Below, one piece after another: positions 5,917 to 11,713 of a stretch of DNA of 64,000 nucleotides. Position numbers and translations under genes: made by a program. The notes below the pieces were generated by a model. It was given only the letters and a program-made list of their open reading frames with translations, was not told the DNA's origin and did no database searches. The stretch is from the NCBI GenBank assembly GCA_025363205.1, contig JANYEI010000038.1:1-64000 (forward strand). Direction: 5' to 3'. Each line of letters starts with the position of its first letter. The first letter of the stretch is position 1. Source of the DNA: Frigoribacterium sp. (lineage in GTDB: Bacteria > Actinomycetota > Actinomycetes > Actinomycetales > Microbacteriaceae).

Positions 5917-7528
5917 ATGCGACGGCGGATTAGAAAGCTCTCAACCCAGATGTTCCTGGCACATTTGGTGATCCTGACCGCCTCCACGGCGATCGGATTC
6001 CTCCTGTTTGCTACTACCGCCCGCGGTCATCTCGACGATGAATACCAGTCGCGAGCGGCCGCAATCGGACAGACCTTCGCGCAGAACGCATCGGTCCAGA
6101 CCTGTCTCGCCGCCCGGAATGCTTCGTGCGACGCTCATGTGCAGGAACTCGCGACCGGGACTGCACAGGAAACCGGGGCCACCTTCGTTGTGGTGATCGA
6201 CGCAAACTCAGTTCGCGTCTCACACCCCAATACCGCGCTCATCGGCAAGTCAGTGTCCGAACCCCTTATTGCGGCCGACGGGCAGGTGCACCTGCGAGTC
6301 GATAACGGTGCAACGGGGATCACGGCCAACGCGATCGTGCCGCTCTACTCCGAAGATCGCACCTTCATCGGTGAGATTTCGGTGGGAATCAAGGAGGACT
6401 CGGTCTCCAGCGCGCTGCTGACTCAGCTGCCGTCCTACGGCGTCTGGTTCGTCGTGATGCTACTGCTGGGTGGCCTGGCATCCTTCGGGCTGTCGACGCT
6501 TCTCAAGAAGCGCACATTTGGCTTGGAGCTCGATGAGATCGCGCGGCTGCTGCAGGAGAGGGAGGCCACGCTTCACGGCATCCGCGGGCGTTATCGCAAT
6601 CGACCCTGCCGGGCGGATCAGTGTCAACAACGACGAGACGCAGCGGATGCTGCACCTCGCGGACAATGTCGTCGGGCACCGGGTCGAAGATGTGCTGCCA
6701 CCCGGCCCGGTACGCGACGCGCTAACGGGCACGAGCGTCGTCACCGATCAGATCATGCTCACCGAGGACTTCTGGCTCGTTTTGAACAGGATGCCGGTCA
6801 CACTGTCGGGCCATCCACACGGCGTCGTAGTGACTTTGCAAGATCGCACGGTGGTGGAAGCCTTGAGTCGAGAACTCGACGGCGAGCGCAGCCTGACCGA
6901 GTCCATGCGTGCGCAGCAGCACGAGTTCAGCAACCGGATGCACGGAATCGCGGGTCTGCTCGAACTCGGACGACCGGAAGACGCTCTCGAATACGTCAAC
7001 GAGATCCGCGGTACAGCGGGTGACCTTGATCAGACTCTGCGCACGCGGATCGCGGCGCCCCAGATCGTCGGCCTGATGCTCGGTAAGGCCGCGGAGGCGA
7101 ACGAGCGAGGGATCCAGCTCACTGTCGATCCGCAGACCTCGGTCAGCGCCTCACCAGATCGGGTGCATTCGCTCACGACGATTCTCGGCAACCTGATCGA
7201 CAAAGCCTTCGACGCAGTTGCGCAAACTCCCGCGCCTCGGCGCGTACAGGTTGGCATCGTAGAAACCGAGGACGAGCTCCGGATGACGGTCAGCGACAAT
7301 GGGCCCGGTATGCCGCCTGCCTTGCTGCCGCAGATGTTCCGAAACGGTTTTACCACCAAACGCGGATCTCTCGTGCAGCACAGCGGCCTTGGCCTCTCGC
7401 TTGTGCAGCGCACCGTAGCGGGGATTGGCGGCAGCATCACGGTGTCAGAGGAGGCGCCTGGGACGACCTTCCTGATAGCGCTCCCGAGGTCGACATCTGC
7501 CAGCGAGCCAAGGACAGTGACGACATGA
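5917..7528 (+). pseudogene. CitA/DcuS-family sensor histidine kinase, split by frameshift near 6586
   Basis: 5917 frame encodes the TM-sensor part up to ...REATLHGIR; a different frame continues GVIAIDPAGRISVNNDETQRMLHL...QQHEFSNRMHGIAGLLELGR...NGPGMPPALLPQMF...GLGLSLVQRTV to 7528. The expected HGIREGVIAID join needs two additional nucleotides. Confidence 0.75.
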
Positions 7529-8265
7529 CAGACGATTCCGTCACCACCCTCGTCGTCGACGACGACTTCCGGGTCGCCTCGGTGCATGAAGGCTTCGTTG
7601 AGAAGGTGCCTGGCTTCGTGGTGGTCGGTAAGGCGCACACTGCCGCTGATGCCCTCGAGATGGCGCACCGATTGCAGCCCGACCTTGTGCTCTTGGACAT
7701 CTACCTGCCCGACGGCGACGGACTGGATGTGGTTCGTGCCCTGCTCGACAACCCTCGCCCGCCGCTCGTGCTGGTCATCTCCGCCGCCAACAACATCGAC
7801 GCGGTGCGCACCGCGGCCCGGCTCGGCGTGGTGCACTACCTGGTGAAGCCATTTGGCTTCGCCGCGCTGGCAGAGCGTCTGAGCGCGATCAGGGCAGCTC
7901 GGGCCCAGGTCACCGACTGGCCGGAGGATGCCGGACAAAATTACGTCGACCGGTTGTTCGAGCTCCTGCGACCGGTGCTCTCGAATGGCAGAGCTCCCAA
8001 CATCGAGCACCTCGCCCCGACTCTGCAGCTCGTATACCAATCGATCCGGTACGGCAAAAGCCGGGCACCGTCATCCGGTGCCCGGCTTTTCCACAGGGTT
8101 GAACTACTTGATGGCCGCCCGCAGCTCGGCTGCAGCCGCAGCGGGATCAATAGCGCCATAGATTGCAGCGCCAGCCACGGCGACATGCGCACCGGCTTCC
8201 TGAACCGCAGCGATGGTGGCGATCGTCACGCCTCCGGCAACCGAGAACGATACTCCGGAGGTTGA
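7525..8265 (+). CDS. CitB-family response regulator, receiver domain intact, C-terminal HTH missing
   Basis: MTDDSVTTLVVDDDFRVASVHEGFV...LDIYLPDGDGLDVV...YLVKPFGFAAL receiver; after TLQLVYQSIR the ORF runs through a terminator and antisense to the hxlA gene with no HTH. Confidence 0.7.
   Translation: MTDDSVTTLVVDDDFRVASVHEGFVEKVPGFVVVGKAHTAADALEMAHRLQPDLVLLDIYLPDGDGLDVVRALLDNPRPPLVLVISAANNIDAVRTAARLGVVHYLVKPFGFAALAERLSAIRAARAQVTDWPEDAGQNYVDRLFELLRPVLSNGRAPNIEHLAPTLQLVYQSIRYGKSRAPSSGARLFHRVELLDGRPQLGCSRSGINSAIDCSASHGDMRTGFLNRSDGGDRHASGNRERYSGG
8056..8090. terminator. Bidirectional rho-independent terminator
   Basis: AAAAGCCGGGCACCG-TCATC-CGGTGCCCGGCTTTT, perfect 15-bp stem with A/T flanks on both sides. 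Confidence 0.9.
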
Positions 8266-8727
8266 TCCGGCTTCGAGCAGAGTGTCAAAAGTGAATCCAG
8301 CTTCGACCTGTTCGTCGAGGCCGGCGTGCATTTCGACGAAGGTGGCGCCGAGGGCGGTCACCTCTTTCGCGCGAGCGGCTTTGTCTTTCACCCCGATGAG
8401 GTCGACGACGATTCCCTTGCCGTGTGCGCGGGCTGCTTTCACCGCACCGGTGATGGTCGAATCCCCGGCAACGCCGAGAATTGTGACCAAATCCGCGCCC
8501 GCCTTGAAGGCGGTGTCGGCTTCGAGTTCGCCGGCATCCATCGTCTTGAGGTCGGCGAAGACGATCTTGTCGGGGTGGGCATCCTTCATCGCTGTCACGA
8601 CTGAGAGACCGGCGGCCTTGATCAGCGGCGTGCCAAGCTCGATGATGTCGACGCTGTCAGCGACCTTCGCCGCGAGGGCGAGGGCATCCTCGGTCGTGAG
8701 AAAGTCAATGGCTACTTGGAGTTGCAT
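8104..8727 (-). CDS. hxlA: 3-hexulose-6-phosphate synthase
   Basis: MQLQVAIDFLTTEDALALAAKVADSVDIIELGTPLIKAAG...DLKTMDAGELEAD...VAGGVTIATI: OMP decarboxylase-like HPS signature. Confidence 0.92.
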   Translation of the reverse strand: MQLQVAIDFLTTEDALALAAKVADSVDIIELGTPLIKAAGLSVVTAMKDAHPDKIVFADLKTMDAGELEADTAFKAGADLVTILGVAGDSTITGAVKAARAHGKGIVVDLIGVKDKAARAKEVTALGATFVEMHAGLDEQVEAGFTFDTLLEAGSTSGVSFSVAGGVTIATIAAVQEAGAHVAVAGAAIYGAIDPAAAAAELRAAIK

Positions 8728-8797: not shown

Positions 8798-9379
8798 CTA
8801 TTCGAGGTTTGCGTGGCGGGGCCACAGGTCATCAGCGCTTTGCCCGGACCTCAGCCAGAGCGAGTGGAAAAAAGCGTCACCAATCGTGACGACAGCCTGT
8901 TCGAAGAGAGATCCTGCGTATTGCACAGACTTGGTGGTGGCGCGATCCAGTTTTTCGGCGGCGGGAACCTCGACAAGAACTGACGAAAGGCCTGCGAGCG
9001 GAGAGTTCGTGGCGGTTGTCAAGGTGATGACAGTCGCGCCGACGTCGATGGCAGTCTTGGCCGATCGCACGATGGCCTCTGTTGTGCCGGAGCCGCTCGC
9101 TACGAGCAGCACGTCACCGCGACCAATTGCCGGCGTCGTAACCTCGCCAACAATGTGCACGGTGAGTCCGAGGTGCATGAGTCTCATCGCCGTCATCCGA
9201 AGAGCGAGACCAGACCGTCCCGCGCCGAAAACGAAGACGCTTTTGGCCGCGTGAAGCTTGCCGACGGCGCGCTCGAGCGAAAGCGGATTGAGATCCGCAA
9301 GTGCGTCGACCAGCGTCGCGTCCTCGCGGGCGATGACGTGGAGGGCGTCGAGCACAGGAAAAGTATTAGTAACAGCCAC
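8798..9379 (-). CDS. hxlB: 6-phospho-3-hexuloisomerase
   Basis: SIS-domain protein; VFVFGAGRSGLALRMTAMRLMHLGLTVHIVGEVTTPAIGRGDVLLVASGSGTTEAIV typical PHI; paired with HPS. Confidence 0.92.
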   Translation of the reverse strand: MAVTNTFPVLDALHVIAREDATLVDALADLNPLSLERAVGKLHAAKSVFVFGAGRSGLALRMTAMRLMHLGLTVHIVGEVTTPAIGRGDVLLVASGSGTTEAIVRSAKTAIDVGATVITLTTATNSPLAGLSSVLVEVPAAEKLDRATTKSVQYAGSLFEQAVVTIGDAFFHSLWLRSGQSADDLWPRHANLE

Positions 9380-9435
9380 CTACTAAACAAACGCCAATCA
9401 CAGCATTTCGGTCACTGGTCGCAGGGATGGAAGTT

Positions 9436-9453
9436 ACTACTCGAAAGAGTAGT
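9436..9453. promoter_or_regulatory. Perfect dyad ACTACTC-GAAA-GAGTAGT upstream of hxlBA (putative operator)
   Basis: 18-bp palindrome, 57 nt upstream of the hxlB start; a related site lies upstream of the LuxR-HATPase gene. Confidence 0.5.
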
Positions 9454-9502
9454 TTTTGATTTTCTGGAGCCATTCGGGCTCTTGGTGAAGGACTGGCAGC
9501 GG

Positions 9503-10795
9503 CTACGTCGCGTTCAGGCTCCGGATGTTGACAATCGAGGCGAGCTCGGCACGGTTGGAAGCGCCGACTTTTTTGAGAACGTTCGCGACATGGAACTTGA
9601 CCGTGTTCTCGGTGATGTTCAACGCATCCCCGATTGCCCGATTTCGAGTACCGGAGGCAACGAGTTCCAAAACCCGTTTTTCTTGCGAAGTGAGCGCCCA
9701 CAGGGGAGCCATATTCAGATGAGTCGTGACGGGATCCAGGGGAAGGGAAACAAAGATTTCCGATCCCCACCCTTTGGTCGCTTCGACTCGAAGTGTGCCA
9801 TCGAGGGCGGTCACGCGCGCACTGAGTTGCCGCACATTGGCGGTGTCAACTGTGAGGTCACCCGGTCCGTCATCGCGAATGTTGATCAACAGGTTGCTTC
9901 CATCGCAATCCCACTGCACGCGAACACGACTCACCCCGGACTGCTCGACAAGTGCCAGAACGGCACCCCGCACGATCGCGCGGCCCGCGTGGGCGACTTC
10001 TCCGGGAAGGGCTCGCCCGTTGATCGGAGGCTCGATGAACTGGATGTCGAGATCGCCAAAGCGGGCAAGCGGGCGAAGATCGTTCTGCAAGCTCTCAAAC
10101 GCTTTGGAAACCGGCTCTTTTGACAGCTTTCGATCTCGATCCGACACCGCACGAAGTTTGACCATTGCGGTGGCGGCAATGTCTGTGGCAGCCCGACGGG
10201 CAGCGGCGTCGGAGGCTTCACGCGAACGCAAAACGGCCAGCAGCATCTCCAGCGTGGTGGAGTGGGCATCCGATAGCTCCGCGATGATGGCCGCTCGTTC
10301 CACTGACATCGTGCGGGAATCGAATAGGTAAGCGGGAGTTGCGGAAGCAACCTGGTGGCGGATGCTCAAAGCGACCAGATCCCACAGACCCGCGATAGTG
10401 ACCATCACCTCGTCAAGGGTCGCTTCTGTTGGCGCAGCGAGGTCCGGGTCGGTCAGCACCATCAGCGCACCGCTGGAGGCAATCCACCCAGCGAAGAGTC
10501 GATCACTGCCGGCGATGATGCCGGTGGCCGCCCAACTCGCTGAATTGTTGGATCGCACTTGCTCTCTGATGACGTCCAATTCGGCGACGGTGACGTGATC
10601 GGCGATCGACGGCGCGCCCGCACGTTTCTGTGGACGACCGGTGCAGTCCTCGGTGAAAATCACCAGGGCGGAATGACGGACAAGCGGTCTCAACAGCTCG
10701 GCGAGAGCGGGGGCGATACCCAGAAGCGGGTTCGACAGCACAGTGTGCAGGTCACGCACCAGAGCGGTCGAAACGGGTTGGGTGGGCAATGTCAT
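9503..10795 (-). CDS. LuxR-family regulator with HATPase-like domain
   Basis: C-terminal LTSQEKRVLELVASGTRNRAIGDALNITENTVKFHVANVLKKVGASNRAELAS (LuxR HTH); central NIRDDGPGDLT...GWGSEIFVSLPL (HATPase-like). Confidence 0.75.
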   Translation of the reverse strand: MTLPTQPVSTALVRDLHTVLSNPLLGIAPALAELLRPLVRHSALVIFTEDCTGRPQKRAGAPSIADHVTVAELDVIREQVRSNNSASWAATGIIAGSDRLFAGWIASSGALMVLTDPDLAAPTEATLDEVMVTIAGLWDLVALSIRHQVASATPAYLFDSRTMSVERAAIIAELSDAHSTTLEMLLAVLRSREASDAAARRAATDIAATAMVKLRAVSDRDRKLSKEPVSKAFESLQNDLRPLARFGDLDIQFIEPPINGRALPGEVAHAGRAIVRGAVLALVEQSGVSRVRVQWDCDGSNLLINIRDDGPGDLTVDTANVRQLSARVTALDGTLRVEATKGWGSEIFVSLPLDPVTTHLNMAPLWALTSQEKRVLELVASGTRNRAIGDALNITENTVKFHVANVLKKVGASNRAELASIVNIRSLNAT

Positions 10796-10840
10796 GATTC
10801 CAACCTAATTGGGAGACAGCATAATTGGGCGGCGGTGAAT

Positions 10841-10858
10841 CCCACTCTAACGAGTAGT
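10841..10858. promoter_or_regulatory. Second copy of dyad-type motif CCCACTC-TAAC-GAGTAGT
   Basis: Right half GAGTAGT identical to the 9436 site, left half ACTC conserved, same 4-nt spacer; 46 nt upstream of the LuxR-HATPase start. Confidence 0.4.
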
Positions 10859-10909: not shown

Positions 10910-11713
10910 ATGGCTCATGACGAAGTGAATACCCGTGCTCGACTTCTCGCGGCGTATGACGCGCAACTGCGCACCGATGCGGAAACCCCGGGCGCCATCG
11001 ATGTCACCCTCCTTGGCCCGCTGCGACTGGTGACCTTCGCCGCTGGACGGGGTTTCATCACCTACCGAGACCTCGGAGAGGCAAACGCAGATGCTGTTCG
11101 GCGGCTCGTACCTGAAGCCCTGAGCTATTTCCAGTCCACCCCAGGCATTGAGCGAGTCGAGTGGAAGACACGTGCCCATGACCACGCGCCGGGGCTTCAC
11201 GACGCTCTGTTGGCGAACGGCTTCATCCCAGATGAGCCGGAATCGATCATGATCGGTGAGGCAGTGGCTTTGGCGATTGATGTTCCACTCCCTTTCGGCG
11301 TGACCGTGCGGCAGGTGACGGAAGAACCGGATGTTCGCGCCATGAGCGCGATGCAGGATGAGGTCTTCGGTGATCCTGTCTCCGTGGACGAGGCGAACGC
11401 TTTACTTGCGCGGCTGAGTCTCGGCGACGACCTTGAGCTGTGGGTCGGCGAAGCAGAGGGCCAGATCGTGACCGCGGGACGACTCGAGCCGGTTGCCAGT
11501 TCCGACTTCGCCGGAATCTGGGGTGGCGCAACCCGTGCCGACTGGCGCGGCAAAGGGATCTACCGTGCAGTGACGGCCGCCCGCGCCCGCTCGGCGATCG
11601 CCAGGGGAAAGACACTGATTCACAGTGATTCGACCGCCCACTCGCGTCCCATCCTCGAACGATCCGGATTCATTGCGGTGTCGACAACGACGCCGTATCA
11701 CTGGAAGCGATAA
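10910..11713 (+). CDS. GNAT-family N-acetyltransferase
   Basis: AGIWGGATRADWRGKGIYRAVTAARARSAIARGKTLIHSDSTAHSRPILERSGF matches GNAT motifs A and B. Confidence 0.8.
   Translation: MAHDEVNTRARLLAAYDAQLRTDAETPGAIDVTLLGPLRLVTFAAGRGFITYRDLGEANADAVRRLVPEALSYFQSTPGIERVEWKTRAHDHAPGLHDALLANGFIPDEPESIMIGEAVALAIDVPLPFGVTVRQVTEEPDVRAMSAMQDEVFGDPVSVDEANALLARLSLGDDLELWVGEAEGQIVTAGRLEPVASSDFAGIWGGATRADWRGKGIYRAVTAARARSAIARGKTLIHSDSTAHSRPILERSGFIAVSTTTPYHWKR

Follow-up and report, generated by a model that had tools for sequence, protein, structure and literature searches.

Predicted operators pair a LuxR-type regulator with the hxlBA operon of formaldehyde fixation in actinobacteria

How might an actinobacterium switch on its ribulose monophosphate (RuMP) genes? 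The question is raised by a 64,000-nucleotide stretch of Frigoribacterium sp. DNA (hereafter the window), in which a LuxR-type regulator gene (9503–10795), hxlB (8798–9379) and hxlA (8104–8727) all lie on the minus strand. The products of the last two, 6-phospho-3-hexuloisomerase (TIGR03127, 224.1 bits, cut-off 160) and 3-hexulose-6-phosphate synthase (TIGR03128, 246.1 bits, cut-off 200), both score above the NCBIfam equivalog cut-offs, identifying hxlBA as a RuMP operon. The original prediction placed a perfect dyad upstream of hxlB and a partner site upstream of the regulator gene. We found ACTACTCGAAAGAGTAGT at 9436–9453, with no mismatches, and CCCACTCTAACGAGTAGT at 10841–10858, with two. 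Their claimed distances also agreed with the sequence: 56 nt separate the first site from the GTG of hxlB at 9379 and 45 nt separate the second from the ATG of the regulator gene at 10795. On the minus strand they read ACTACTCTTTCGAGTAGT towards hxlB and ACTACTCGTTAGAGTGGG towards the regulator. The explanation that best accounts for the locus as a whole, and that we hold with good confidence, is that these are operators of the adjacent LuxR/NarL-type regulator, with hxlBA activated and the regulator controlling its own gene.

The 64-kb window contains eight perfect 7-bp dyads whose spacer is 4 nt, so the perfection of the dyad is by itself unremarkable; we dropped it as a measure, and the weight comes from comparison. 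That count is also what speaks for chance palindromes near two promoters, a reading to which we give next to no credence, because a matrix built only from Micrococcaceae, and hence independent of the window's own family (Microbacteriaceae), ranked exactly these two positions first and second over the 64 kb (20.8 and 17.2 bits; the third match reached 8.4 bits), and because the spacing from site to start codon equals that of the relatives to the base. With a matrix from all relatives, none of 100 Markov windows contained two matches of at least 17 bits. Across the window's genome, the strict pattern was perfect at 9436–9453 only, and near matches elsewhere were no more frequent than those of a reversed-pattern control, so we set aside a genome-wide regulon for this genome. 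It is very nearly certain, as a prediction, that 9436–9453 and 10841–10858 are operators.

To see whether the motif is conserved, we searched for the regulator in 60 and then 400 relatives, together with a named genome collection. Before deduplication, the regulator and hxlBA were arranged divergently at 118 loci and in tandem at 6; another 12 had no hxlB in reach and 3 were arranged otherwise. Nearly all relatives with hxlB above the cut-off also carried the regulator, usually adjacent to it, the exception seen being genome G141. An expectation-maximization search of the divergent regulator/hxlB intergenic regions, to which the motif was not supplied, returned the palindrome CCTACCC-GWWC-GGGTAGG with a log-likelihood ratio of 770, versus 26 for shuffled sequences. 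A site of at least 12 bits was present in 80 of 81 non-redundant divergent regions, and the remaining region reached 9.9 bits. This is the opposite of what would have spoken against the original prediction, namely a motif missing upstream of orthologous hxl operons. Among flanking 18-mers, 7 of 653,890 reached 12 bits, at least two of the seven being true hxlB promoters of tandem loci; shuffled regions almost never did. The palindrome thus stands, with CCTACCC-N4-GGGTAGG as the family consensus and the ACTACTC form of the window as a local variant. One observation that counts against our overall reading is that site 1 is imperfect in Salinibacterium xinjiangense, the closest relative of the window (12.9 bits). 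When 149 relatives and 151 Micrococcaceae were scanned with the pattern, matches outside hxl and regulator loci did not exceed the control in aggregate. We found no relatives in viral contigs, and no conserved neighbour other than hxlBA or the transketolase and transaldolase genes (tkt/tal) stood out near the window locus.

When these regions were aligned on the palindrome, a common promoter layout emerged: a weaker second copy starts exactly 22 bp downstream of site 1, a third is faintly suggested at +44, and a −10 element resembling CANGAT lies at +62 to +67. Of 53 promoters of the Microbacteriaceae type, 52 have an hxlB start codon at +72 to +75, and the GTG of the window is at exactly +74. 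In the window, the second site (9414–9431, minus strand, TCCATCCCTGCGACCAGT) lies exactly 22 bp from site 1, matching the offset preferred across the family, and is the second-best position upstream of hxlB. It is very weak, which counts against the overall reading, and is stronger in relatives. The expected −10 is TTTGTT at 9386–9391 on the minus strand, an assignment taken from the position of CANGAT in relatives; a competing match, TTTAGT, lies at +66. With 6 nt between the −10 and the start codon, a leaderless pattern, the hxlBA transcript is probably leaderless, which places the centres of the two sites at about −65.5 and −43.5 from the predicted start. Matches to a −35 element in hxlBA promoters were no better than in shuffled sequence.

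The dyad at 9436–9453 could also be an RNA hairpin acting as a terminator of regulator transcription or as an attenuator. As RNA, it has a stable fold for either strand (−12.6 and −8.6 kcal/mol), and it is followed by a T-run on the plus strand. However, as the original prediction had noted, that is the wrong strand: no gene ends there and the genes concerned are on the minus strand, which speaks against an intrinsic terminator. The conserved positions are those of DNA half-sites, and the relatives have the site between two divergent genes and upstream of the predicted starts, so that neither transcript would include it. A hairpin is therefore highly improbable, and conservation at fixed spacing across relatives, as expected of a bacterial operator, strongly supports an operator, as does the presence of the motif at both promoters after rearrangement.

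At the regulator's own promoter, the predicted −10 is TAGGTT (10802–10807, minus strand), located 6 nt before the ATG in a leaderless pattern; a TANNNT element six nt before the start codon is common on this side in relatives. An alternative, TATGCT (10818–10823, minus strand), matches the position of TATGTT in S. xinjiangense. The two candidates are separated in the window by a 16-bp repeat containing CCCAATTA, which S. xinjiangense lacks. Among relatives, the regulator-side site lies 37–67 nt upstream of the start codon, and this variation means that the sign of autoregulation cannot be read from spacing. We found no operator in the regulator's own upstream region in Rhodococcus sp. NBC_00297, Rhodococcus jostii NBRC 16295 (locus L123) or Arthrobacter cavernae (locus L179), which, like the variable spacing, counts against our overall reading.

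These layouts bear on whether the same regulator, acting at the same operators, might instead repress both hxlBA and itself until released by formaldehyde. In many relatives, the site on the regulator side covers part of the −35 region (offsets 44–50), and in some Microbacteriaceae the site lies between −35 and −10 (offset 37), which fits repression of the regulator. By contrast, the hxlBA sites are upstream or −35-adjacent, do not cover the −10 and accompany no −35 above chance, which is the usual picture of an activated promoter and makes activation likelier. We regard repression of hxlBA as unlikely and its activation by the regulator as probable, given this promoter architecture.

Rearranged loci offer a further comparison. 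The tandem order of regulator and hxlB was found in the window, S. xinjiangense and isolate LF-bin-143. These three group together (100/100) inside the set of relatives with the divergent order, so the tandem order is a single rearrangement. Within this clade, the regulator and hxlB promoters each keep their own operator. In genome G016, the regulator and hxlB are 0.8 Mb apart and the palindrome is present at both. Several family members in Arthrobacter and Mycobacterium face a transketolase–transaldolase operon instead, and most of these loci have a recognizable site of the CCAACCC-N4-GGGTAGT type. On Streptomyces plasmids, the regulator faces S-(hydroxymethyl)mycothiol dehydrogenase, either in company with hxlBA or by itself, and at each locus the operator is the top-scoring site (14.6 and 18.9 bits). 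That a different transcription factor binds the dyad, with the LuxR neighbour a bystander, is conceivable in that the pairing of operator and regulator is predicted from sequence and every genome encodes other helix–turn–helix (HTH) proteins. However, regulator and site travel together in Microbacteriaceae, Micrococcaceae, Mycobacterium and Streptomyces, the pairing holds where the partner is transketolase or the mycothiol-dependent formaldehyde dehydrogenase rather than hxlBA, and lone regulators mostly retain the site too. A different factor is thus improbable, and we predict with high confidence that the operators are recognized by the adjacent regulator. Counting against the overall reading is operator drift on Rhodococcus plasmids, in which the regulator is divergent from hxlBA and a changed dyad occupies the corresponding place; in one of these (L287), ACTAGCC-N4-GGCCAGT stands where the consensus operator was expected. 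On this plasmid and a second one (L284), hxlBA lies beside zwf and gnd, with pgi added in L284, the gene set of a dissimilatory RuMP cycle.

We also observed the motif at genes of other kinds. An extra copy of ino1 in genome G041, encoding inositol-phosphate synthase, an enzyme for a mycothiol precursor, has a full hxl-like promoter with a site of 26.6 bits (L216, 5633–5650; G041:C1:839632) and the +22 element, and a ProP-type transporter gene lies on the other side. A genus-wide ino1 operator was ruled out: the site belongs to the extra copy of G041 only, the usual copies scoring mostly below 7 bits, with one at 9.8 and one at 16.0. Within a C1-like island, a GAPDH gene has an operator of 21.0 bits upstream (L161, 10309–10326) and the same promoter layout as hxl; another operator, of 24.6 bits, lies near a ProP-type transporter gene with folD (L154, 7914–7931). 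The GAPDH and ProP/folD loci are possible further members of the regulon. In R. jostii NBRC 16295, a relative of the regulator without hxl nearby sits beside a cytochrome P450 and an FAD/2Fe-2S reductase, a pair that is possibly an O-demethylase that would release formaldehyde.

The regulator (430 aa) comprises an N-terminal sensor-like part (residues ~1–150), a degenerate histidine-kinase-like DHp/CA core (~155–355) and a GerE/LuxR HTH (368–421). GerE (PF00196; 61.6 bits, cut-off 23.5) was the sole Pfam domain above cut-off, and four relatives scanned agreed, identifying a DNA-binding domain of the LuxR/NarL–FixJ class. No Pfam match to a receiver domain (Response_reg) was found, as would be needed for a NarL-type two-component response regulator, and HATPase_c stayed below its cut-off (E = 0.1–0.2), short of a sensor histidine kinase. 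An AlphaFold2 model (mean pLDDT 78, pTM 0.42, its domains being more reliable than their arrangement) shows long helices besides an N-terminal alpha/beta domain, and its CA-like domain, as modelled, resembles VraS (4gt8; TM 0.79 of target, 2.0 Å) and also matches DesK. In the alignment, ELTDxHSTTLE is the sequence of the DHp-like stretch, so that ELTD replaces the usual ELHD, and H178 is invariant; a G1-like RDDGxG is kept; and R272 and R276 are invariant where the N-box Asn would be expected, on a tentative assignment of the box. The label 'LuxR–HATPase' in the original prediction therefore stands for the HTH, whereas its HATPase part is fold-like but degenerate. Because the usual His of ELHD is replaced and Arg apparently occupies the N-box Asn position, the regulator is probably a one-chain protein derived from a kinase rather than a functional kinase. 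Neither C51 nor K57 varies among the 46 long members, and C297 is invariant in 49 of 49. Short regulators (~280 aa) lack the N-terminal domain and C51 and yet retain the locus, which counts against our overall reading and leaves the sensing role of the N-terminal part uncertain.

Taken together, these features suggest the following mechanism. A regulator dimer would bind the inverted repeat CCTACCC-N4-GGGTAGG and a second dimer would probably bind the weaker site 22 bp, or two helical turns, downstream, beside the −35 position. The bound regulator would recruit RNA polymerase to the hxlBA promoter, where a −10 is present without a good −35, so that hexulose-phosphate synthase and isomerase would be raised as formaldehyde, or a product of it, accumulates; the operator at the regulator's own promoter would make the switch autoregulated. 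With respect to the autoregulated formaldehyde/RuMP switch originally proposed, predicted operators are indeed present at the hxlB and regulator promoters, and formaldehyde as the signal is suggested by what the regulon contains. This content (hxlBA, transketolase/transaldolase, mycothiol-dependent dehydrogenase, ino1 and GAPDH) points to formaldehyde or a RuMP intermediate as the probable signal, although it is not proof, and we lean towards a formaldehyde-responsive switch.

Several known systems invite comparison. The GerE HTH is clearly homologous to that of NarL/FixJ regulators (E = 6e-14 with the NarL DNA-binding domain), although no receiver domain was found here, and sensor and kinase-like domains share the same chain. 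The half-site core TACYC resembles the NarL heptamer (NarL/FixJ inverted repeats read TACYY...RRGTA), with half-sites about 2 bp closer than in the NarL 7-2-7 box. DesK/VraS/NarX-type kinases (HisKA_3 plus HATPase) share the modelled CA-like fold, but the regulator differs from them in its sub-threshold HATPase, its apparently invariant Arg at the N-box Asn, its replaced ELHD His and its fusion to its own HTH. MnoSR of Mycobacterium smegmatis is likewise an actinobacterial, C1-related system with very few operator sites; however, it is a two-component system that acts on the mno operon in the control of methanol/diol oxidation, and its description does not mention hexulose genes (PMC11303327). 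A functional counterpart is HxlR of Bacillus subtilis and B. methanolicus, a DUF24/MarR-like, formaldehyde-linked activator of hxlAB for which Cys–Lys cross-linking has been described (PMC8879981). The operon type is alike, as would be the activation of hxlAB and the link to formaldehyde, whereas HxlR is a MarR-like winged-helix protein and the regulator here combines a LuxR/NarL HTH with a kinase-like core, with no match to a DUF24/HxlR winged-helix domain in Pfam or NCBIfam. It would work like the HxlR–hxlAB switch but is outside the HxlR family.

By analogy, Cys–Lys cross-linking by formaldehyde is conceivable for this regulator. A bolder and rather doubtful extension would be an actinobacterial family of one-chain direct formaldehyde sensors, each joining a dead histidine kinase to a LuxR HTH and sensing, for example, through a Cys51–Lys57 cross-link or Cys297, in which one operator would coordinate detoxification through mycothiol with both the fixation and the regeneration steps of RuMP. 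LuxR-type regulators are absent from a 2022 review that covers how bacteria metabolize formaldehyde and regulate this metabolism (PMC8879981), and we found no LuxR-type regulator of RuMP genes in the open-access literature, an absence that is weak evidence given that scope. The locus points to a putative, previously undescribed type of formaldehyde-pathway switch. Its compact regulator–operator–hxlBA cassette, found in Microbacteriaceae, Micrococcaceae, Rhodococcus, Mycobacterium and Streptomyces, offers a testable answer to how these bacteria turn on formaldehyde fixation, and the hxlBA promoter is a candidate formaldehyde-responsive promoter for synthetic methylotrophy.

Other genes flank the system in the window. 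A GNAT-like gene (10910–11713, plus strand), whose start on the opposite strand is 51 bp away from the operator of the regulator, is probably outside the system, since few of the compared loci have a relative there. On the other side, a DcuS/CitA-like sensor kinase (5917–7528, plus strand) appears split over two frames, with sCache in the ORF at 5917–7023 and SPOB_a and HATPase in the ORF at 6470–7528, which suggests a sequencing error or a frameshift. The ORF of a DcuR/DpiA-like response regulator (7525–8265, plus strand) overlaps the 3′ end of hxlA on the opposite strand; Pfam recognizes its receiver domain only, and the ORF may be truncated or frameshifted.
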